IMG/VR virus record: IMGVR_UViG_3300046048_000392
Location: 1-27,528 of that record
From: a virus
Length of the DNA stretch: 27,528 nucleotides
Direction: 5' to 3' (one strand)
Shown: in pieces, positions 3,556-26,150 of the stretch
Position numbering within the stretch: the stretch's first letter is position 1
Layout of the letters: each line of letters starts with the position of its first letter
Program-made: the position numbers and the translations under genes
The notes under the pieces: generated by a model
The model's input: the letters and a program-made list of their open reading frames with translations, nothing else
What the model was told of the DNA's origin: nothing
Databases searched by the model: none

Positions 3556-4119
3556 TCAGGTAGCCAAGCGCGGGCGCCAGCCGAAGACCTTCCGGCCACG
3601 CAGCCTGGCAATGAGGCCCGAGCGTCGTTCATCACGGACGACCTCGAGCGTGCGTTTCACGGCCTGTTGCAGCTTCTCATCGGTGTGCCCGAGCTCGTGG
3701 CGTAGGTACAGCCGCATCCATGCAGCATCCGTGTTCGGGTGGTGTCGGTACAGATAGTCCTGCAGCCGGAACCGCTCGAGGAGCAGTCGCCACGGGGGTT
3801 CATGAGGGAACCGCTCGAGGCTGATCCAGTCATTCGTCTTCGGATCGATGTCCCAGAGCACGATGCGGCGCCAGCCGGATGCCTTGAGCGTCGAGAGCCG
3901 AAGCGCCGGCCACGTTGCACCACCAGACTCCTTGATCGCGATGAGCTCCCGCCGGCCCCACTGGATGAGCGGGATACTTGGGTACACCAAACCGAACCAC
4001 CACTTCCCGCGGCCGATGTAGACCCACTCGGCACGCGGATCCACCGCCCGAAAGTCTGCGACGACCTCGGGCGGCGGATCCCGGAACCGAAAGACGTCCG
4101 TGAGCCTACTTGCGTCCAC
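3556..4119 (-). CDS. Uncharacterised conserved-looking phage protein
   Basis: A 187 aa product if the GTG at 4119 is used. That start has GGTGGG about five bases upstream and overlaps the upstream gene by 14 nt. The frame stays open further upstream, but that part is Arg/Pro-rich low-complexity sequence antisense-like in style and overlaps the 102 aa gene, so I reject it. The protein is rich in Trp and Arg: 'WVYIGRGKWWFGLVYPSI' near the start, 'GWRRIVLWDIDPKTNDW' in the middle and a basic C-terminal tail. It looks like a compact alpha/beta virion or assembly factor. No family recognised; GTG at 4128 is an alternative start. Confidence 0.55.
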   Translation of the reverse strand: MDASRLTDVFRFRDPPPEVVADFRAVDPRAEWVYIGRGKWWFGLVYPSIPLIQWGRRELIAIKESGGATWPALRLSTLKASGWRRIVLWDIDPKTNDWISLERFPHEPPWRLLLERFRLQDYLYRHHPNTDAAWMRLYLRHELGHTDEKLQQAVKRTLEVVRDERRSGLIARLRGRKVFGWRPRLAT

Positions 4120-4414
4120 GTTTCCCACCAGCGGTGCCGCCGGATGGGGTATTCGTGGCGCTCGACTGAGCTCGCGGTCCGCCTCGCGCCTGTCCAGCGG
4201 TGGCGATGTGGCCCGCACGCGCGGCCTGTTGCGCCGGCGCGCTGGCACTGGGCGACTTGCCACCCATTCCGCTCGAGGGCGCGCGGCCCGGTGGCTTCGA
4301 GCCCGAGACATCCGACTTGAGCGCCGAACCGCCGGACATCTGCGCGCGACCGCCGGTCTTGCTGGCGGCGATGCCACCGTGCGACATCGGGTTGTACTTG
4401 CACTTCCTCGCCAC
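4106..4414 (-). CDS. Small low-complexity basic protein
   Basis: A 102 aa protein starting at GTG 4414, two bases after the upstream TAG, with AAGGACGG as ribosome site. It begins 'MARKCKYNPMSHGGIAAS' and continues as a Gly/Ser/Ala/Pro-rich, Lys/Arg-rich chain ending 'GGKRGRK'. It has no predicted globular core. Small disordered basic proteins of this kind are common among minor capsid or DNA-associated virion proteins. Coding status is supported by spacing and start context only, and its last 14 nt overlap the next gene. Confidence 0.45.
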   Translation of the reverse strand: MARKCKYNPMSHGGIAASKTGGRAQMSGGSALKSDVSGSKPPGRAPSSGMGGKSPSASAPAQQAARAGHIATAGQARGGPRAQSSATNTPSGGTAGGKRGRK

Positions 4415-5532: not shown

Positions 5533-6969
5533 TTAGAAGACGGACGTGAGTCCCTCGTAACGAACGTTCTTGCGGGGGGCCATGCAGAACAGCTGCTCGT
5601 ACATGTTCCCGACCGCGTAGTACGCATCCTTCCGGCCGACCGAATCTGTGACCCGGTTCCAGATGCTCCCCGTCCGGTCGTCCCACTCCCACTGACCAAG
5701 GGTGAGCCGGCGCCACGTGTCCGACTGCAGGCCGAATGCCAGTTCCGGAGCCAGCTTCCGCGACACCTTGAGGTCGAGCATGCGGTCCCCGAGATTGACA
5801 CTCAGGCCCGCCTTGCCCCCGGTGTAAGAACGCGGATCGTTGAGGGTCCGGTCGCCCTTGAGGCTCTGCCAGTATCCGCGTGCACTCGGCCGCGACATGA
5901 TGAGCGTGTCAAGCTTGCCGGCGCCCTTCACCGTCACCTGATCGTCGCCGTAGGTCAGGAGCTCTTCCGTCATCTGCCCGCCCCACTGCGGATCGCTGGC
6001 ATCGATCACGATCGAGCGCCACAGACGGTTGCCCGAGGCGGTCCGATCGATGTTGTTGTAGGTGGAGATGATCCCACCGTCGTCGCAGCCGGCCAGACAG
6101 CCCGCAATCTCGCGGTCCTCACCGGCAGCCGTCTGCGAGCTCGCGCCCGCGTCGTCACCAGCGAAGAGGTAGTCGTCCGCGGTCCATGCGGCCAGCAACG
6201 TGTTGTCCCCGGTCACTTCGATCGAAGAATTTTCCTCGTCGATGTCCGTGACCTGGGCGCCCTTGATTGTGCCGTTCGCCCGGATGCTCTGCCCATCGGC
6301 CGCGGGATCCGCGACGATGCGCTCGCCCTCGAGGAACTGCAGGTACGCCCCCGTCAGTCCGTCGACCCCGTACGTGCGGTCAACGACCACAGTGTAGACG
6401 CCACCAGCCCCGCTGATGCTGGCGATCCGCGCCTTCACGCCCGATCCATCGGACACGTACATCCGGTCGATCTCGTTGACCAACCGTGTGACCAGATCGG
6501 GGAGCGCCCGCTCCATGTAGTTCAGGAACGCCCCTTCATCCGAACGGACCCGACGCATCGTGTCGCCCGTCATTTCGACCGTACCCTGCAGCTTCCGCAG
6601 GTACAGGCGGCTGTTGACGAAGCGCGGATCGTCAGGCTCGGGGATGTACTCGTTTTCGGCACGAGCTCCGACGCCAGCCGGCAGCCGGAAGTAGTGCGCC
6701 ATCTCGATATACCGCCCACCGGTCGTGTCGTCCGCCTGCACGTTCATGTCCACCTTGAAGATGTCCATGAACTCAGTGTCCTCCACGATGTTATTGATGA
6801 GCGGATCCGAGAAGATGATCTTCAACGCTTCGTCGAGGTCGGTCGTCAGGGTGATGTCGCCCATGAGAACCGGAGTGCCGGCCAGTGCTGCCGGTGCTCC
6901 AATCACGAGCCACACCGCCACAACCCCCAACGCGAAGAGGAAGCGCTTGAAGCCGGTTTTCAGCTCCAT
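5533..6969 (-). CDS. Major capsid protein (HK97-fold type) with signal-peptide-like N-terminus
   Basis: A 478 aa protein located between scaffold and decoration genes. Typical capsid features are an early helix ('SDPLINNIVEDTEFMDIF'), 'GGRYIEMAHYFRLPAGVGAR', 'LRKLQGTVEMTGDTMRRV', a long spine helix with 'LNYMERALPDLVTRLVNEID' and a C-terminal 'WEWDDRTGSIWNRVTD'. The N-terminus is unusual: a basic segment (1-10), a hydrophobic stretch (about 11-27) and 'AALAGT' (about 27-32), like a Sec signal with an A-x-A cleavage site. The ATG at 6969 has GAGGT seven bases upstream, whereas the next ATG (codon 36, 'MGDITLTT') has no ribosome site, so the long form is probably made. An insertion-like Gly/Ala-rich region with Cys (about 275-305) may be a surface domain. 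The capsid call is strong. Confidence 0.85.
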   Translation of the reverse strand: MELKTGFKRFLFALGVVAVWLVIGAPAALAGTPVLMGDITLTTDLDEALKIIFSDPLINNIVEDTEFMDIFKVDMNVQADDTTGGRYIEMAHYFRLPAGVGARAENEYIPEPDDPRFVNSRLYLRKLQGTVEMTGDTMRRVRSDEGAFLNYMERALPDLVTRLVNEIDRMYVSDGSGVKARIASISGAGGVYTVVVDRTYGVDGLTGAYLQFLEGERIVADPAADGQSIRANGTIKGAQVTDIDEENSSIEVTGDNTLLAAWTADDYLFAGDDAGASSQTAAGEDREIAGCLAGCDDGGIISTYNNIDRTASGNRLWRSIVIDASDPQWGGQMTEELLTYGDDQVTVKGAGKLDTLIMSRPSARGYWQSLKGDRTLNDPRSYTGGKAGLSVNLGDRMLDLKVSRKLAPELAFGLQSDTWRRLTLGQWEWDDRTGSIWNRVTDSVGRKDAYYAVGNMYEQLFCMAPRKNVRYEGLTSVF

Positions 6970-6994: not shown

Positions 6995-8206
6995 TCAGCG
7001 ACCCAACAGCACGCCGAGACCTTTCTCGCGCGCCAGCTTGAATCGCTCCTCTAACGTTTGGCCTGCGGGCAGCTTCGTTCGGCTGGCCGGGGCGCCTCCG
7101 CCTGGGGGCGTCGACGCGGCGGCTCTCTTCCGCCTCTGACTCGCCTGCATGAGCTCTGCACGGGTGGGCTGTTTCCGTTTCTTCGCGAGGCGTGCGCCGG
7201 GCTCTGAAGCGGGTTTGCCCTTGAGAAGTTGTGCGGCGTGCAGCGGATCGATGCCGGCAGCACGAAGCTGCGAGGCAAGCAGGATCGGCACGTCGTCGAC
7301 TTCGATTTTCTCGAGCTTCTTCTCCCTGATGGTCTGAGCAACGGCTGTTTCGAGCGTCTGAATGATGGCGGTGCGACGGGTCTCGGTGATGCCGTCTGTG
7401 ACGGGCACCATTCTCGCGATCGCGTCGCGGACGATGCGTCCCTGTTCCTTGGCGTACCGGCGTGTCTCGATCGCCGTCCTGAGCCCTGACTGGGCCGACG
7501 CGCGCGCGGCCTTGAGCTCGGCCTGTAGTACGCGCCGTTCCCGTGGATCCTCGAGGGCCTGCTGCAATCGTTCGGACAACTTCTCGAACACGGCCGGCTC
7601 GAGTACGAGTGACAACGCGACATCTTCGATGGTTTCGGGAGGCACGTTCTGAATGATGAATCCGGCGGGATCCGTGCCGATCCAGACCTCCATCTCTTCG
7701 ATCAAGGCTCGGTCCTGCTCGACGGCTTCTCGTTCGGCGCGGAGCTTGCCCGCCGCCTCGTAGCCGTTCTTCAGCTGGCGCAACCGCTCGGCGGCTTCCT
7801 TCGACTCGACGACGATCTCGAACTCGTCGTCCCCTTCCCGACGTGGGGGAAGCGCGACGACGAGATCCTCATCTACGTCCTCCGCTTCACCCTCCGCCTT
7901 GGCAGGTTCGCCGCCTTTCGGTTCGCCTTGCTTGCTTTCGTCCTCGCCGGCCCCTTCCGGTTCGCCCTCCGCTTCCTCACCTCCAGCCTCATCTGTCTCA
8001 TCGCCTTCGGCTTCTTCATGCTGGTTGTCCTCGCCTTCCGGTGTCTCGTCGGCGGGCAGGTCTGTGAGCTCGCCTGCTGGCTGCTTGCTCGCCTGCTGAG
8101 CCTCTCGCGCGCGAGCCAAGGCTGCGGCGATCGGCGAGAGCTTGGGCCCGTCGTTGCCCTTCGGGGGCGTCGGAGCGCCCGGTTCGGGCTTGACTGCTGC
8201 TGACAT
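6995..8206 (-). CDS. Scaffolding protein
   Basis: A 403 aa protein starting at ATG 8206 with AGGAG upstream. The first 20-115 residues are extremely Glu/Asp/Gly-rich and probably disordered. Residues 130-170 and 200-270 are predicted coiled-coil ('SKEAAERLRQLKNGYEAA'). The C-terminus (about 340-403) is Lys/Arg-rich, with 'LEERFKLAREKGLGVLLGR' at the very end. An acidic disordered region, central coiled coil and basic C-terminal capsid-binding tail are the typical make-up of a phage scaffold, and it sits between the portal and the capsid gene. No protease motif is visible, so a separate maturation protease is not evident. Confidence 0.8.
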   Translation of the reverse strand: MSAAVKPEPGAPTPPKGNDGPKLSPIAAALARAREAQQASKQPAGELTDLPADETPEGEDNQHEEAEGDETDEAGGEEAEGEPEGAGEDESKQGEPKGGEPAKAEGEAEDVDEDLVVALPPRREGDDEFEIVVESKEAAERLRQLKNGYEAAGKLRAEREAVEQDRALIEEMEVWIGTDPAGFIIQNVPPETIEDVALSLVLEPAVFEKLSERLQQALEDPRERRVLQAELKAARASAQSGLRTAIETRRYAKEQGRIVRDAIARMVPVTDGITETRRTAIIQTLETAVAQTIREKKLEKIEVDDVPILLASQLRAAGIDPLHAAQLLKGKPASEPGARLAKKRKQPTRAELMQASQRRKRAAASTPPGGGAPASRTKLPAGQTLEERFKLAREKGLGVLLGR

Positions 8207-8419: not shown

Positions 8420-10768
8420 CTACGCTCCCACTTGGAACTGCGCGGATCCGCCCTGGCCGGCGGCAGTCGGAACTTCGGCCTGCCCGCTCGGGCCACGCTG
8501 CATGGAGCCTTCCGGCCCACCCGCCTGAGAACTTGCACCCGGCCCGCGTTTTCCGGTACCGCTCGGAGAGGGGCTTCCCACTTGCGGTGGCGTCATCTGG
8601 GCGACCTTCAGCTGGATGTTGATGATGTGCAGCCCCCGATGGAACTCGAACGCCTTCCGGATCTGGTCGGACTGCTTGAGGTATTCCGGACTGGCCATGA
8701 ATTCCTCATGCACCATGAGGTGTACGGCGTCGTCGTACCACTCGAAGACAGGCACCATCCGTGGGTCGTTCCCCTGCAGCAGTTGGCCATTCTCCTGCTC
8801 GGCCGTGATCCGGTGCACCCCGCCGAACTTCCGGGCCCGATCGAGGTGCGGGAAGCTCGAGAGATCGAAGAACCGCTTGATCGCTTCGGGGGATCCCGGC
8901 TGGCCGAACAACCCATTCGCGTACAGCGCGGCGATCCGCTGCTGGCGCTCGCCACGCCCTTCAGGCAGCATGGACTCGATGTCCGGTTGCACGTTCACCT
9001 TGCCTTCGGTGAACAGGGTCGGCGTCACGATGATCGTGCGGGCCGTATTGTCATCGCCCGCGTAGCTGAAAAGCTCTTCCTGATCGAACACCAGCGGCAG
9101 CATGGCTACCCAGTCTTCGGCCATCCGGCCGAATTCCTCGACCGCGCGGCGCATCGTCGGTCCTACGAATCGGTCCGAGTTGAACCGGAGCTCTTTGACG
9201 AGCTCGCCCGAGGCGTCCTGGGTAGGCGCGTCCCCTTCAGTCCCTGACAGGGCCCCGAGGTCGGTGATCTCGTTCAGGAGGAGGGCCTGCGTCTGGTAAA
9301 CATCCTGCCCCAACGGTGGCGGCGACACGTACTCGAGCGCCGGGATGTTGGCGCGCCGAGTCACGACATGCCACACGCCCGGCTCATTGTCGATCTCCGT
9401 GTCCTCGATCCCGGCCATCGAGTCGATGATGCCTTTCGGGTTGGTCACGAGGTTCCGATGCTCGAGGATCTGGGCCCACCCCCGGTTGTAGGCCCGCTGC
9501 GCGCCGTTCATTGCCTCCTGAGGGGTGGTCCCGCCTCCGGGCCGGCCGGGGACGCGCACGAACTCGAATCGACGCAATCCACTCGTGTACTTGAAGCGGA
9601 TCGGGCGTACGTCGTCGAAGAGCACCTTGTTCCGCGTACAGATGAGCATCCGTCCGCCGGGGCTCTCGAGCGTTTCGCGCATGCGCGCGTCTTGGGGCAG
9701 CGAGATAGGCTTGTGCCAGAGCTCGAAGACCTCGACCAGCTGCTCGGGCATGGCAGCGCTGGCGAAATCGGCGCCGAAGAATGCGTCGGCGGATCCGAAG
9801 AACCCCTTGCCGAACAGGATCCGCTCGAGCGCCCCCGTCGAGTCAGCCGTGGTCTCGGCCTCACCGACCGTATCGACGCCCCAGCGTTCCATAATCTCGT
9901 GGGGGCTCAGGAACGTCCGAATCAGGTGCCACCGCTTCTCATGCCACGGCCGCGGGCTCCATTCACCCCGAACCTGCAGCGCGTTAAAGACATCGACGTT
10001 CAGATCCCCTTTGCGCTCGACGTACGCGGGTCCCGTCTGGCGCGTGCCATCCGGCGTCATTTGCATCATCGGGTTGAACTGCTCGTCGAGCGGCACGTTG
10101 TCGTACTCGTCCTCTGTCATGGACGGCTCGCCGTTCTCGAGGATCGGCTGCCCGTCTGGCCCGACGATCGGCACGGGCGCGCGCGCCTCGCGGGGCATGA
10201 GCTTCCCCCGTTCTGGATCGATACGGCTGCGACAGTAGACCGTCCCGCTCGGGATCAGCCAGGCGGAGGCGCGGTCCCAGATTTCGGACATGCCCACTTC
10301 CCGCCATTTCGCTTTCCAGATGATGTCCTGTGTGACGGCCGCTTCGGCGTCGATCCGGTCGGGCCCCGGCAGGAAGGTGATGATCGGCGGGTTCTCGGTC
10401 ATACGCGAGTGCGTAATCATGAACCACAGGAGCAGACGGTTGAAGACCGGGCGCTGGCGCCAGCGCTTCTCCTCGTCCGTCATCCAGCGGGTCACGTCCA
10501 CGAATCGCCCGATGCGGTTGTTGTAGACGGTCCACTGCTGGCCCGCGAGCATCCGGAGATTCTCTTCTATCATCCGGTCCCGGATCCGCAGGAGCTCGTC
10601 TTGCGCATCCCACAGGGACGTTGCCCACGTGATCCGGTTGCCGTCCTCGCGATCTGGTTGGTCTGGCTGCTGGCGAATCGCGGGGATCTGTTTCCACGAG
10701 TAGAGCTGGACCGTGCCGCTTCCGCGGGATCCTGTGCCCCGTCCAGCGCCCGGCGGTGCAGTTGGCAT
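8420..10768 (-). CDS. Portal protein (P22-type)
   Basis: A 782 aa protein starting at ATG 10768, two bases after the upstream TAG, with AAGGA eight to nine bases upstream. The N-terminal region has a helical clip of the portal type ('DAQDELLRIRDRMIEENLR', about 50-70, then 'AGQQW'), followed by 'RPVFNRLLLWFMITHSRMTE' near 110 and a long alpha/beta body. The C-terminus (about 690-782) is Gly/Pro/Gln-rich and disordered. The length and motif style match the P22 portal family (about 725 aa). It lies next to a scaffold and the capsid, as in most tailed phages. The order terminase, fibre genes, portal is less usual. Confidence 0.85.
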   Translation of the reverse strand: MPTAPPGAGRGTGSRGSGTVQLYSWKQIPAIRQQPDQPDREDGNRITWATSLWDAQDELLRIRDRMIEENLRMLAGQQWTVYNNRIGRFVDVTRWMTDEEKRWRQRPVFNRLLLWFMITHSRMTENPPIITFLPGPDRIDAEAAVTQDIIWKAKWREVGMSEIWDRASAWLIPSGTVYCRSRIDPERGKLMPREARAPVPIVGPDGQPILENGEPSMTEDEYDNVPLDEQFNPMMQMTPDGTRQTGPAYVERKGDLNVDVFNALQVRGEWSPRPWHEKRWHLIRTFLSPHEIMERWGVDTVGEAETTADSTGALERILFGKGFFGSADAFFGADFASAAMPEQLVEVFELWHKPISLPQDARMRETLESPGGRMLICTRNKVLFDDVRPIRFKYTSGLRRFEFVRVPGRPGGGTTPQEAMNGAQRAYNRGWAQILEHRNLVTNPKGIIDSMAGIEDTEIDNEPGVWHVVTRRANIPALEYVSPPPLGQDVYQTQALLLNEITDLGALSGTEGDAPTQDASGELVKELRFNSDRFVGPTMRRAVEEFGRMAEDWVAMLPLVFDQEELFSYAGDDNTARTIIVTPTLFTEGKVNVQPDIESMLPEGRGERQQRIAALYANGLFGQPGSPEAIKRFFDLSSFPHLDRARKFGGVHRITAEQENGQLLQGNDPRMVPVFEWYDDAVHLMVHEEFMASPEYLKQSDQIRKAFEFHRGLHIINIQLKVAQMTPPQVGSPSPSGTGKRGPGASSQAGGPEGSMQRGPSGQAEVPTAAGQGGSAQFQVGA

Positions 10769-20456: not shown

Positions 20457-20559
20457 GAACCACGAGCCAGAGGGCGCCGATGGCGCCCGTGAGCGTGAAC
20501 GCGACGGCCACGAAGACCGCCATCAGGAAAATCACCATGTTGGCCAGTTGCTCGAGCAT
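20314..20559 (-). CDS. Small membrane protein directly after terminase
   Basis: An 81 aa protein starting at ATG 20559, sharing TGATG with the terminase stop. The N-terminal hydrophobic stretch (about 8-35, 'MVIFLMAVFVAVAFTLTGAI') is one or two membrane passes, followed by a polar tail that overlaps the next gene. Only the first 35 residues clearly look coding; the tail could be a by-product of overlap. It may be an additional lysis or membrane factor. Confidence 0.45.
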   Translation of the reverse strand: MLEQLANMVIFLMAVFVAVAFTLTGAIGALWLVVHGHVKIEVHPAGEEDASGHPAETRDDRRMARPGAQSSRIAKRALTSL

Positions 20560-22094
20560 CAGTAGCCGTCCATTGAGAGGAGATTCGACCGTCGTGGCCG
20601 AACCTCGATTTTGGACCGGTGCCGCCGCCCGACCTCCATTTCATACGTCAAGACTGACTTCGACCACGCGCGAATATCGGCTTGCTGCCACGTGGGCATC
20701 GCGCGCCGCGGCCGACTCGCCAGCGCGTACCGGGTCTCGTCATAGTCGTCGTCGCCGCCCTCCCCCGTCATCGGATCGGCGTTCATTTTGAGCGCGTCTT
20801 CCGGATCGTCCGGATCGATCACCATCGAGGCGCAGGACTCGAACGCTTTGTGGTTCCCTTCGGTCTCCATCCAATAGACGTTCGGTTCTCCGTCCGCGCC
20901 GCCCGACTCGATCTCTTTCCAGGCGACCTGCTCGCGGAAGTTCTTGAGCCCCGCGGGCCGGCCGATGTTGGCTTTCGTCATAAGAATCGGCGGATCGAAC
21001 TGCGAGAACCGTTCGGCCGTCGAGGGGGTGGTCTCGTCGCCCCGCGCCTTATGTTCGGCCCAGCAGTCGTGGCCAGCCACCACGTACGAAAGCTCCGCGA
21101 CCGGGATCCGGTTGGCGATCCGTTCATGAATCCGCCGGTCGCTCATGCCACGACCACGGATCGTATCGAGCTTGAAGATCGTGCCGTCTTCATCGACCGC
21201 GTAGTGCCCGAACACCCACGGGTGCTGGTAGCCCCAGTCGAACGCGCCGAACTGGGTCCAGTGGGGCGGGATGGTGAACCGCGGGACGAAGTGCACATGC
21301 TCGTCGAGCTCCTCGAGTGCCATGCCGAAGCCAGCATCCCAGTCCCCCTCGAGCAGCTGCCGGCGGAGGGTCTGGGGCAGCGAGACCAGCGCAGCCATGT
21401 AGACCGGATCGTTCGCGTAGATCGGGTTGTCTGTGACCTTCGACGGGATGAACCGGCGGGTCCGCTCGACGAGCTCGCCTGAAGGGAGCGTGAGCGTATA
21501 CGTATAGATCCGCTCGCCCCGTTTCCCGCACTTGTCGATGAACCGGCGCTTGCACCACGGGTGCCCCGGCCGACCGGGGTTGCCGGTCCCGATCATCTGG
21601 CGCCGCACTTTCGGATTTGGGCACCGGTTCTCGGCAATCAACTCGATCCAGACGCGCTCATCAGCCAGATCGGCGACTTCATCGTACCCGATCGTGGCCC
21701 ACTCGCCACCGTGGTACAACTTGACCTCTTCGACCGTCTTACAGTGACCGAACTGGACGATCGCGCCGCCCGTACCGAGCGGGGTATCGGGATTCGGGAA
21801 GGTCCAGCGCTTGAGCGATCCATTCCAGACAGGCCGCTGCGCGAGCCGCGGGTAGTATCGGTGCGAGCGGTCGATGAGCTCTTGGACTTCGGGGAAGGTC
21901 TGGCGCAGGATGAGCGCCTTGTACCGATCGAGGTGGACCTGCTTGAGCGGCTTGATTAGGACCGCTTCCGACTTCGCACCCCCCTTCGCCCCGCCGAAGA
22001 AGATTTCGTCTTCGGTCGCGGACAAGAGTTCGGCCTGCCGGCGATGGATCGGCTTCCAGACGACCTCTTGGCCTTCCTCGAGGTCTACCCGCAT
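20559..22094 (-). CDS. terL: Terminase large subunit (packaging ATPase/nuclease)
   Basis: A 511 aa protein starting at ATG 22094, three bases from the upstream TAG. Walker A is GGAKGGAKS (34-42). The Walker B-like segment 'WATIGYDEV' (132-140) ends in D138/E139. A coupling motif 'GTGNPGRPG' lies at 169-177. The nuclease domain starts near 'LLEGDWDA' (247-254) and has Asp286 in 'FGAFDWGY', a further Asp in 'VAGHDCW', and a C-terminal acidic cluster 'DDDYDETRYAL'. It pumps DNA into the prohead through the portal and cuts it. Complete, with no frameshift. Confidence 0.92.
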   Translation of the reverse strand: MRVDLEEGQEVVWKPIHRRQAELLSATEDEIFFGGAKGGAKSEAVLIKPLKQVHLDRYKALILRQTFPEVQELIDRSHRYYPRLAQRPVWNGSLKRWTFPNPDTPLGTGGAIVQFGHCKTVEEVKLYHGGEWATIGYDEVADLADERVWIELIAENRCPNPKVRRQMIGTGNPGRPGHPWCKRRFIDKCGKRGERIYTYTLTLPSGELVERTRRFIPSKVTDNPIYANDPVYMAALVSLPQTLRRQLLEGDWDAGFGMALEELDEHVHFVPRFTIPPHWTQFGAFDWGYQHPWVFGHYAVDEDGTIFKLDTIRGRGMSDRRIHERIANRIPVAELSYVVAGHDCWAEHKARGDETTPSTAERFSQFDPPILMTKANIGRPAGLKNFREQVAWKEIESGGADGEPNVYWMETEGNHKAFESCASMVIDPDDPEDALKMNADPMTGEGGDDDYDETRYALASRPRRAMPTWQQADIRAWSKSVLTYEMEVGRRHRSKIEVRPRRSNLLSMDGY

Positions 22095-23071: not shown

Positions 23072-23593
23072 TCAGGCCGGAATGAGCTCAAGTTGCTGCT
23101 GCCTCAGGACCTCGCCGAACCGCCGCACGTCTTCCCGGTACGCACCCCAGCGTGCGACAACCGCCGTGAACTCTTCGACATCGTGCTCGAGCAGACAGTA
23201 CCGCTCGTGGTCGTCGATCCCGCAGTGCGAGAGCTCGTGGTCGAGCACGGCGAGCCGCTTGACGAGCGGCATGCCTTTCCAGAGCTCCCAGTTGACGATC
23301 AGGACGAAATCTTCGCCCGTGATGGTCTTCCAGAGGCCACTGACGAGGCTCATGCGCGCGATCTTGGCGCGACCGCGCCCGCCCAGCTTCTCGGCGAACA
23401 GACAGCGGAGTTTGGCATTTACGAGGTGCGGATACAGCCGCCGCACGAGCTCGCTGAGCAGCGCGGAGACCTGGGGTGCCTCCGTGTATTTCTCGTCCGT
23501 GTTCCATACCGCCGGAATGGTCGTCCGACTTACGATCGCCCCGAACTCGTCCCGGCTGCCAGCGAATGCCTCAGGCCACTGTTCGATTGTCAT
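23072..23593 (-). CDS. Putative phage metallopeptidase (HExxH)
   Basis: A 173 aa protein starting at ATG 23593 (ATGA overlap with the HNH gene); the frame continues upstream but only as out-of-frame HNH sequence. It has the HExxH zinc site HELSH at 119-123, preceded by 'VLD' and followed by CGID, and a downstream acidic or His cluster 'EHDVEEF' (136-142) that could give the third ligand. The N-terminal part includes 'RCLFAEKLGGRGRAKIARMS'. The overall pattern matches the putative phage metallopeptidase family (PF18894, PhageMetallopep) of known phages, which has a conserved HELCHCG-like site. Substrate unknown. Not a typical endolysin. Confidence 0.75.
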   Translation of the reverse strand: MTIEQWPEAFAGSRDEFGAIVSRTTIPAVWNTDEKYTEAPQVSALLSELVRRLYPHLVNAKLRCLFAEKLGGRGRAKIARMSLVSGLWKTITGEDFVLIVNWELWKGMPLVKRLAVLDHELSHCGIDDHERYCLLEHDVEEFTAVVARWGAYREDVRRFGEVLRQQQLELIPA

Positions 23594-23937
23594 GTCGTCC
23601 TCACGATGCCGAAAGGAAGCGGTTCTGCGAGTTGGATGAAATCGCCATCGAAGTCGCGCGCGAGCCACTGGGCGAGCGCCTCGAGATCGACGGCGTACCG
23701 GGTTTCGAAGCTCTGACGGCCGATCGTATGGAGCGCGCCGCCGCCCGCGGTATGGTGCCACGAGCACATCGGCGTCCCGTTCCCGATCGACGGAACGTCT
23801 TTGCCTCCGATCCCGCTGTGGTGATTGTGGCTGAACTCGATCCGGCCGCTGCACTCGCCCGAGTGCTGTGCGACGCAGCGGAATCCGGCGCGGACGAACG
23901 CTTCGAAGCACTGGTCACGGTCAGGTACGCTGGCCAT
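23590..23937 (-). CDS. HNH endonuclease
   Basis: A 115 aa protein starting at ATG 23937. The zinc-finger/HNH core has Cys21 and Cys29 ('GFRCVAQHSGECSG'), a 'HNHHSGIGGKD' segment (37-47), Cys58 and His61-62 ('PMCSWHH'), then 'HTIGRQSFETRY'. This is a compact betabetaalpha-metal nuclease. It overlaps the upstream unknown gene by 17 nt and the metallopeptidase by 4. HNH proteins next to terminase are often required for DNA packaging in phages with a cos or unit-length cut; here it is three genes away from terL. Not clearly a homing endonuclease, as it interrupts no gene. Confidence 0.8.
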   Translation of the reverse strand: MASVPDRDQCFEAFVRAGFRCVAQHSGECSGRIEFSHNHHSGIGGKDVPSIGNGTPMCSWHHTAGGGALHTIGRQSFETRYAVDLEALAQWLARDFDGDFIQLAEPLPFGIVRTT

Positions 23938-24660: not shown

Positions 24661-25292
24661 CAGCCCGACCGCCGGCCGAGCCACTGCTGGTACTCGCCCT
24701 CGCAGTAGGCTTGCTGCTCGAACGACTCCCAGCCTCCTACAGGCCAGCCCAGCGCGGTCGCGCCATCGGCCATCGTAAGGACGGCACAGAACTGCCGCTG
24801 GTCGCCGGGATGCATCGCCCAGGCGCCCGGCAGGACGTCAACTAGACTGACCTGTACGGATGGGATCGTATCGATCCCGACCGAATCAGGCGGCAGCGGT
24901 GGCAGGTACGGAATCGGGAACACCCGGTCGGGCGAGCTCCGGAACGCCGAGACCCCGCCGCGATCGTCCCTCGAGCGCACAACACCCCGAACGAACAGGG
25001 TATCCCCAGGCAGCGGACTGGGCACGAACAGTGTATCGGGGCTCGTGGTCGCCGCGCCGAAGGCCAGTGTATCGCCGAAGCTCGTGCCAACGATGCGGGT
25101 ATCGTAGCTGATCGCCGGCCGGTTGGCCGGGTTCGAGGGAGCGTTTACCCACCGGAGCACCAGTCCGACCGAATCCCCCGCTTGGAACGCGGTCAGGTCC
25201 GGATTCGCTGGGGGCCGCGCCGCCGCGCGAGCTTCCACGGTGCAGGCCCAGACCACCAGTCCGAGCGCCAGCCAACCGATCGCCTTACGCAT
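24660..25292 (-). CDS. Secreted Fn3-like protein (possible lipoprotein)
   Basis: A 210 aa product from ATG 25292 (8-nt overlap with the upstream stop), the true N-terminus: Arg-Lys start, hydrophobic core about 4-16 ('IGWLALGLVVWAC'), then 'TVEARAAARPPANPD'. The cysteine at about 17 (LVVWAC) is a poor lipobox because Trp is at -2; an AxA cleavage is equally possible. The mature part has an Fn3-like fold about 33-120: 'SVGLVLRWVNAPS', 'DTLFVPSPLPGDTLFV', then a Pro/Asp linker and a C-terminal helix with 'QRQFCAVLTM'. It may act at the cell surface, for example in exclusion or as an outer-membrane lysis factor next to the spanin-like gene. Confidence 0.5.
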   Translation of the reverse strand: MRKAIGWLALGLVVWACTVEARAAARPPANPDLTAFQAGDSVGLVLRWVNAPSNPANRPAISYDTRIVGTSFGDTLAFGAATTSPDTLFVPSPLPGDTLFVRGVVRSRDDRGGVSAFRSSPDRVFPIPYLPPLPPDSVGIDTIPSVQVSLVDVLPGAWAMHPGDQRQFCAVLTMADGATALGWPVGGWESFEQQAYCEGEYQQWLGRRSG

Positions 25293-25569
25293 CGATCCGC
25301 TCCTCGTCGAGTTTGTGATCGCCGCACCAGTCATCAGGGAAGGTCGCCGGCCAGCCTTTCAGGGTAGGCGCGTGCTGCCGACAGCGGCCGAGCCGGTACC
25401 GAGCATTCTCGACCTGTGGCTTCTTCGGTACCCACCACATGCACGACCGGCAGCGCATGTTCCGGGCCCGATGACGCCAGTTGTCTTCCGGCGCCTCCCG
25501 GTCGTACATCAGACCGCTGACGTGCACCGTTTTCAGCTTCGTTTCCTCGCCCACCAGTGGCCCAGTCAT
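25285..25569 (-). CDS. Cys-rich Zn-binding phage protein
   Basis: A 94 aa product from ATG 25569 (ATGA overlap); the frame is open further upstream but only in low-complexity Gly/Ala sequence overlapping the Acb2-like gene. Conserved residues are C40 and C43 ('MRCRSCMWWVPKK'), C63 ('GRCRQHAPT') and C82 with H85 ('PDDWCGDHKLDEE'). The 'GRCRRHAPT...WP...DWCG' pattern is a small Zn-ribbon or Fe-S protein often found in phages and their hosts. A typical phage accessory gene, activity unknown. Confidence 0.65.
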   Translation of the reverse strand: MTGPLVGEETKLKTVHVSGLMYDREAPEDNWRHRARNMRCRSCMWWVPKKPQVENARYRLGRCRQHAPTLKGWPATFPDDWCGDHKLDEERIDA

Positions 25570-25841
25570 TCCGCCACCTCCCGCAAGATCGCCTCGTTCG
25601 CCCACAAGACCGCCTGCCGCACTGACCGCACCGCCGCACTCTGATCGGCACACACTGGCGTATTGTCCACGATCGCCTGCGCAAACTCCTGCCCCAACTG
25701 CCGCACAATCCGCAGCTGCCGCGCCTGATTCGTCTGCCCGTCCGGATGCGGCCGCAGCCGAAACAGCCGGTCCAACTCCATCACCCCCGCACGCCGCTCC
25801 CCTACCGTCCGATCCGCTGGTCGCGTCGCCTTCGATGCCAT
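25566..25841 (-). CDS. Acb2/Tad1-like cyclic-nucleotide sponge (anti-CBASS/Thoeris candidate)
   Basis: A 91 aa product from ATG 25841 with a strong AGGGGG five bases upstream; the open frame to 26048 is not needed. It has the Acb2 (anti-CBASS 2) layout: 'ELDRLFRLRPHPDGQTNQAR' (about 22-41), a helical hairpin 'IVRQLGQEFAQAIVDNTP' (about 45-62) and a C-terminal helix 'AVLWANEAILRE' (about 77-88). This matches the known F-x-Y-x-P...Q-x-x-R-Y...FA..I...P...S.A...vM-W-A-N-A-x-I-A-R pattern. Acb2 forms a small oligomer that sequesters cyclic dinucleotide or trinucleotide messengers made by CBASS cyclases. Identification is by motif pattern only; ligand specificity cannot be read. Confidence 0.65.
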   Translation of the reverse strand: MASKATRPADRTVGERRAGVMELDRLFRLRPHPDGQTNQARQLRIVRQLGQEFAQAIVDNTPVCADQSAAVRSVRQAVLWANEAILREVAE

Positions 25842-26150
25842 ACGACCCCCTGAATGAACAACGGGCGAGGAACGGTGCCCTCGGCAAACCCACTCGGCGC
25901 CCCACCCGACGCCATCTGCCTGATCGCCAAGCCCCTGTGCCTGGATCGATCGCCGTCCCTCGCCCCCAGTACCACAATCAACCGGGTCCGCAATCCCCAG
26001 ATGGGACCCATGCTGCCAGTGCCCCCAGTGCTGGAAAAGGCGGTACATCCTCCTCCCCGATGGGACCCACCGTTCCGGACCGCCCCCCCCGCCCCCCGTG
26101 CGCGCGCGTTTCCATGCTCGACCGCTGCGCTCGTCGCCGCACCTTCGAAC
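25842..26150. other. About 300-bp region without a convincing gene
   Basis: No reading frame here has strong coding signs. Minus-strand frames are open from ATG 26048 (in frame with the Acb2-like gene) and from ATG 26011 to a stop at 25802, but neither gives a recognisable protein and the Acb2-like gene has its own strong ribosome site. The region carries G-rich tracts on the minus strand (26082-26097) and a direct repeat (25994-26010 and 26054-26069). It could be a leader or regulatory region. I found no promoter that I trust. Confidence 0.3.
25994..26069. repeat. Direct repeat flanking a G-rich leader region
   Basis: On the plus strand the words TCCCCAGATGGGACCCA (25994-26010) and TCCCCGATGGGACCCA (26054-26069) recur 59 bp apart, differing by one inserted base. 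CCAGTG words lie between them. The repeats are outside confident genes and upstream (in transcription) of the Acb2-like gene, so an operator or RNA-structure role is possible. Confidence 0.45.

Follow-up and report, generated by a model that had tools for sequence, protein, structure and literature searches.

Sponges built on the Acb2/Tad1 scaffold act as generalists in counter-defence, and their specificity has come under selection from bacterial decoy systems. The K26 residue of Acb2 makes a phosphate contact. Binding of cyclic dinucleotides by the T4 protein is abolished by the Y8A substitution (PMC12657230, PMC12657218), F82 serves as its second stacking residue (PMC12657218), and the di- and trinucleotide pockets of Acb2 are independent of each other (PMC12043709). 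Tad1 carries an N-terminal beta-sheet domain (PMC12043709). The decoy system Panoptes punishes phages whose Acb2 binds cyclic dinucleotides, and phage T2 has a mutation that probably affects the dinucleotide site selectively (PMC12657218). Microbacterium and Mycobacterium phages carry annotated Acb2 genes (PMC13348362, PMC11953737), and T4-type and Tunturi_1-type sequences occur in 1,038 and 87 phage records, respectively. Because the family has already been recorded across many phages (PMC13348362, PMC11953737), the member described here widens it little, and the original prediction that it would extend the reach of the family was overstated; one more phage lineage with a family member is ordinary by itself. 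The novelty lies in a variant specific to this lineage, whose pocket loop is remodelled, and in the pairing of this variant with a canonical copy.

The gene lies in a 27.5-kb virus record (the whole stretch analysed, hereafter the window), which represents about half of a genome of ~50 kb (Table 1). The stretch 25566-25841 is coding on the minus strand only, from an ATG at 25841 to a TGA at 25568-25566, and its translation is MASKATRPADRTVGERRAGVMELDRLFRLRPHPDGQTNQARQLRIVRQLGQEFAQAIVDNTPVCADQSAAVRSVRQAVLWANEAILREVAE; the coordinates and the length of 91 residues had been predicted correctly, with the strand left unstated. A strong ribosome site had also been claimed, and the Shine-Dalgarno-like AGGGGG found ahead of the ATG is plausible but not strong. 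Since the frame continues open for 69 residues further upstream (ATG 26048), no stop codon determines where translation begins. Initiation at 25841 is nevertheless supported by the ortholog in a related phage, L115, whose ribosome site is a perfect GGAGGT and whose N-terminus reads MDHTTRPADLTQGDRR (versus MASKATRPADRTVGERR in the window protein), and by a conserved TRPAD.T.G.RR stretch. Initiation at M21 (ATG 25781), where many relatives begin, was rejected, as the orthologs conserve residues ahead of M21. The gene is under purifying selection in the window and its two orthologs, with dN 0.36 and dS 0.99 in comparison with L115 and dN 0.44 and dS 2.15 in comparison with L116. The open upstream frame, in a genome of 64.5% G+C where long chance reading frames are common, could be taken to mean that the reading frame is spurious and unexpressed; however, two other phages carry orthologs 52-59% identical to it at the corresponding position, with dN below dS, ribosome sites are present, and there is an ATGA overlap with the next gene. 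The orthologs refute this explanation in practice, and we regard its probability as negligible.

Table 1. Features of the window that are discussed in the text
Feature	Position	Strand	Remark
Major capsid gene	5533-6969	minus	Recognisable structural gene
Portal gene	8420-10768	minus	Recognisable structural gene
Terminase gene	20559-22094	minus	Recognisable structural gene
Gene of small Cys-rich protein (CRSC...GRC...DWCGDHKLDE)	25285..25569	minus	Directly downstream of hairpin gene
Gene of 91-residue hairpin protein (P0001)	25566..25841	minus	Open reading frame with translation
Two-helix hairpin, residues 43-86	25584..25715	minus	Matches PF24729 positions 13-57
Codon of R47 (equivalent to PaP2 K26 and T4 K23)	25701..25703	minus	R in 55/55 relatives
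Remodelled N-terminal loop, residues 27-39 (FRLRPHPDGQTNQ)	25725..25763	minus	3-residue insertion; FxYH tyrosine missing
Shine-Dalgarno-like AGGGGG	25846..25851	minus	4 bases before ATG of hairpin gene

All recognisable structural genes of the window are on the same strand as the hairpin gene, which is located ~3.5 kb upstream of the terminase gene and surrounded by small genes, in an accessory operon; a setting among accessory genes had been proposed. The start codon of the downstream Cys-rich gene and the stop codon of the hairpin gene overlap (ATGA), and the two are therefore likely to be co-translated. A Cys-rich protein of this kind (CxxC...GRC..H.PTL.G.P..F..DWCG.HKL) is encoded in the hairpin-gene operon of all three phages, that is, in the window, in L115 (about 7232-7468) and in L116 (about 1611-2152); no confident family was obtained for it, a match to DUF3291 being below the cut-off. 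Two further small proteins of the region are encoded on the minus strand: one with a metallopeptidase-like LDHELSHC motif (23072-23599), whose best PHROGs family is labelled 'transposase', apparently a mislabel, and an HNH-like protein (23590-23937; NHHSGIGGK..P.GNGTPMCSWHH; phrog_1588) common to L115 and L116. The supposition that the phage belongs to an uncultured lineage agrees with the structural proteins: the major capsid protein is ~24% identical to its nearest cultured relatives, Arthrobacter Jasmine-like phages, and the terminase is ~30% identical to those of cultured HMO-2011/Roseobacter CRP-like phages, its nearest match (38.5%) being from another uncultured phage. Arthrobacter phage Jasmine also encodes a predicted Acb2/Tad1-hairpin protein.

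Judged from sequence comparisons, the window protein belongs to the Acb2/Tad1 hairpin superfamily PF24729 as a genuine, though divergent, member, and the predicted homology was thus upheld. PF24729 was the sole family returned by a Pfam search (22.0 bits, E 1.9e-4), at a score below the curated cut-off of 27 bits; the orthologs in L115 and L116 scored 27.7 bits (above the cut-off) and 15.7 bits (below it). The protein matched phrog_1454 among the PHROGs (E 2.1e-7), and a profile built from 55 phage relatives with the protein itself left out gave it 72.0 bits, the best of 1,000 shuffles reaching 14.8 bits. The phage and viral-contig proteins closest to it belong clearly to PF24729 (39-89 bits) and show the family motif FxYHxPxxxQxxxYxxIR...NTPxxADQ[ST]AAxRxxRExVMTANAAIA. 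They are strongly virus-linked, with 154 found in 2.9 million viral contigs (IMG/VR) versus 12 among 11.3 million genome contigs of bacteria and archaea, in scans using comparable, not identical, patterns. Alignment of the family profile to T4 Vs.4 with hhalign was modest (E 3.4e-4), and its alignment to PaP2 Acb2 was of no use (probability 0.3). A sequence search of the PDB with the window protein alone gave irrelevant matches only, and its NCBIfam matches were far below cut-off. PADLOC has no model for the Acb2/Tad1 hairpin family, and known Acb2 proteins likewise return nothing from it.

The hairpin layout that had been proposed was recovered in an AlphaFold2 model, in which helices are predicted at residues 13-26, 37-60 and 65-90, the latter two long and antiparallel. 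Mean pLDDT is about 95-97 over residues 41-80 and exceeds 95 in the core of the hairpin, whereas the N-terminal third has low values (about 56-78). In Foldseek searches of predicted viral structures (BFVD), the best named matches of the model were Acb2/Tad1 hairpin proteins (probability 1.00, best E 4.6e-3), but no significant match was obtained in the PDB, where T4 Vs.4 (7uq2) ranked third and seventh with E 1.3-2.3, probability <=0.09 and TM 0.24; on the predicted model, then, the direct fold match of the window protein to solved Acb2 is weak. As a positive control, the model of a canonical relative (L011, pLDDT 96) was searched in the same database; T4 Vs.4 with cGAMP occupied ranks 1-3 (probability 0.98-0.99), and Acb2 8h2x and Tad1 appeared lower down the list. 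Because this canonical relative finds T4 Vs.4 first, the chain that leads from the window protein through its family to Acb2 is sound.

Searches with the capsid and terminase proteins identified related phages of ~50 kb, of which L115 and L116 have syntenic orthologs of the hairpin protein (59% and 52% identity, respectively), with the gene order around the hairpin gene conserved among the three. The remodelled clade is defined by these three sequences only, and ~20 extra N-terminal residues are conserved in it alone. L116 has two Acb2/Tad1-hairpin genes in one operon (1308-1598 and 3957-4181), the second of which carries a canonical FRYH motif and lies 2.5 kb downstream of the remodelled-type ortholog. 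The tree places this FRYH copy among the FxYH proteins, at the end of a long branch, and hence it is not a recent duplicate. It starts within the stop of a metallopeptidase-like gene (ATGA). The 50,253-base record of L115 contains one hairpin copy, and no second canonical copy was found in the 27.5 kb of the window, about half of the genome. Four more distant sister phages (L129, L130, L131 and L132; 67-68% capsid identity) have another loop variant, FFxPV....GTxQ, together with AMFWANQxISHR, and an FFxPV-type variant is also located directly upstream of the terminase gene in L106. In a tree based on few columns, a fully supported split divides the window protein, both orthologs and the four sister-phage proteins from the FxYH proteins. 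The loop insertion is also present in the sister phages, with a different sequence.

In Pfam coordinates, T4 Y8, PaP2 Y11 and the tyrosine of FxYH share one profile position, and T4 K23, PaP2 K26 and the invariant arginine of the family share another. The 55 relatives were chosen by their last-helix pattern, so that conservation there is inflated, and N-terminal positions were not selected on; in these relatives the tyrosine column holds Y in 51, H in three and F in one, that is, an aromatic residue or histidine in every case. When the window protein and its orthologs are anchored on F27, the same column contains leucine (L29), leucine in L115 and valine in L116, and the family-to-T4 hhalign alignment likewise places it at L29. 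When R47 is used as the anchor, it falls instead on H32, and on L and S in L115 and L116, respectively. The N-terminal alignment of the window protein to the family should accordingly be read as uncertain, and no conserved residue replaces the tyrosine, since H32 is L or S in the orthologs. The loop itself is three residues longer in this clade (LF[RK][LV]...P[DA]GxTNQ). The basic residue that follows the tyrosine by 15 positions in Acb2 is retained as R47 on the first long helix, the core NTPxCADQSAA..R..R..V.WA.EAI is kept, and the motifs named in the original prediction are present (E-FAQAI, residues 52-57; WANEAI, residues 80-85). The refuting circumstance that it named, a lack of the conserved binding-pocket residues in an alignment, holds in part, the tyrosine being replaced by Leu/Leu/Val in the clade. 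At the position of T4 F82 the window protein has L86 and 47 of the 55 FxYH relatives have alanine, so that a second stacking residue is no family-wide feature. S68 is retained in the clade, and R67 and T71 of PaMx33 are, we presume, trinucleotide-site residues of Acb2; S68 as a putative trinucleotide-site contact is only a lead.

These residues bear on whether the protein is a canonical Acb2 that binds 3'3'-cGAMP and related cyclic dinucleotides and trinucleotides and blocks CBASS, with H32 or another residue replacing the tyrosine. Membership of the same superfamily and R47 at the K26 position are in keeping with such a role, and the R47 anchor puts H32 exactly at PaP2 Y11/T4 Y8, where histidine also occurs in three of the 55 relatives. 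However, this histidine is not shared by the orthologs, the F27 anchor and the family-to-T4 alignment both point to L29, and Y8A abolishes binding by T4 Acb2 (PMC12657230). We thus consider a canonical function improbable, and a sponge of CBASS dinucleotides is not a safe reading of a clade with Leu/Leu/Val at the Y8-equivalent position. The CBASS-type immunity that the original prediction suggested for the host is conjectural.

A second explanation is that the hairpin protein no longer binds signals and acts, for example, as a small regulator or a protein-binding inhibitor on the same scaffold. Loss of the pocket tyrosine and the clade-specific N-terminal extension would fit such a change, and the canonical copy kept in the operon of L116 could have freed the remodelled copy for a new role. 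Yet the family-conserved core positions are kept under dN below dS, and in L115 the remodelled type occurs alone, as a single copy in the complete record length given above; this explanation also seems unlikely to us.

We interpret the window protein as a phage Acb2/Tad1-hairpin protein, most likely a non-enzymatic messenger sponge that probably does not bind the customary cyclic dinucleotide in the customary manner, a reading we hold to be somewhat favoured. That it works, putatively, like an Acb2 is the most likely account. Its small helical protomers would form an oligomer, by analogy with Acb2 probably a hexamer, and pockets between protomers would sequester a nucleotide messenger of host immunity and thereby keep the effector silent, which would amount to a counter-defence role. 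The base-stacking tyrosine is gone and its loop rebuilt, while the hairpin core and the basic residue are kept, and ligand choice has probably shifted. Losing the dinucleotide site need not end sponge function, because the two Acb2 pockets are independent (PMC12043709).

A narrower version holds that the protein is blind to dinucleotides and selective for trinucleotides, maintained under selection by decoys of the Panoptes kind. The dinucleotide-pocket residue is the only known loss, the two sites are independent (PMC12043709), and phages have been reasoned to be able to tune Acb2 away from the decoy (PMC12657218), but the insertion recurs with another sequence in the sister phages, so that it may be neutral lineage history; we find this version quite doubtful. 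Loss of one site would make biological sense, if unproven here, since neither site depends on the other (PMC12043709) and Panoptes puts dinucleotide binding at a disadvantage (PMC12657218). More broadly, there is a small chance that the clade represents an Acb2-scaffold sponge that lacks the cyclic-dinucleotide site and takes another messenger (trinucleotides only or an unassigned signal), which could evade Panoptes and form a two-sponge set with the FRYH copy in one sister phage. A clade that has the scaffold and lacks the dinucleotide-stacking tyrosine, beside a canonical copy in one phage, offers a natural test of the separate evolution of the two sites and of whether the Acb2/Tad1 scaffold serves other messengers.

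Among described systems, Tad1 (7uav/7uaw, 8kbb) shares the C-terminal hairpin domain, and a Tad1 identity was rejected because the window protein has no beta domain, the model of its 91 residues being free of strands. The family profile finds its best match among solved structures in Acb2 homolog 43 (9ptq; E 0.0008-0.0015), which is likewise without the tyrosine (FDTH) and differs by its low sequence identity (18%), and we found no published ligand for it in the accessible literature. With Acb2 (T4 Vs.4, 7uq2; Pseudomonas phage PaP2/PaMx33, 8h2j/8h2x) the window protein has in common PF24729, a helical hairpin with a short N-terminal helix, a basic residue at the K26/K23 position and its nature as a small phage accessory gene. 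Unlike Acb2, it has no Y8/Y11 stacking tyrosine, has leucine at the T4 F82 position, and bears a 3-residue N-terminal loop insertion and ~20 extra N-terminal residues, whereas the long insert between the two helices of T4 and PaP2 Acb2 is absent from it. It was not filed as Acb2 proper because the feature needed for dinucleotide binding is absent. Closest by sequence, at up to 45% identity, are the FxYHxP short-hairpin proteins (Paenibacillus phage Sitara gp67, Tunturi_1 gp101 and 55 IMG/VR relatives), which differ in keeping Y (51/55) and H (54/55) and in having a shorter loop, and which share with the window protein the core NTPxxADQ[ST]AAxRxxRxxVxxANxAI and a hairpin free of any inter-helix insert.
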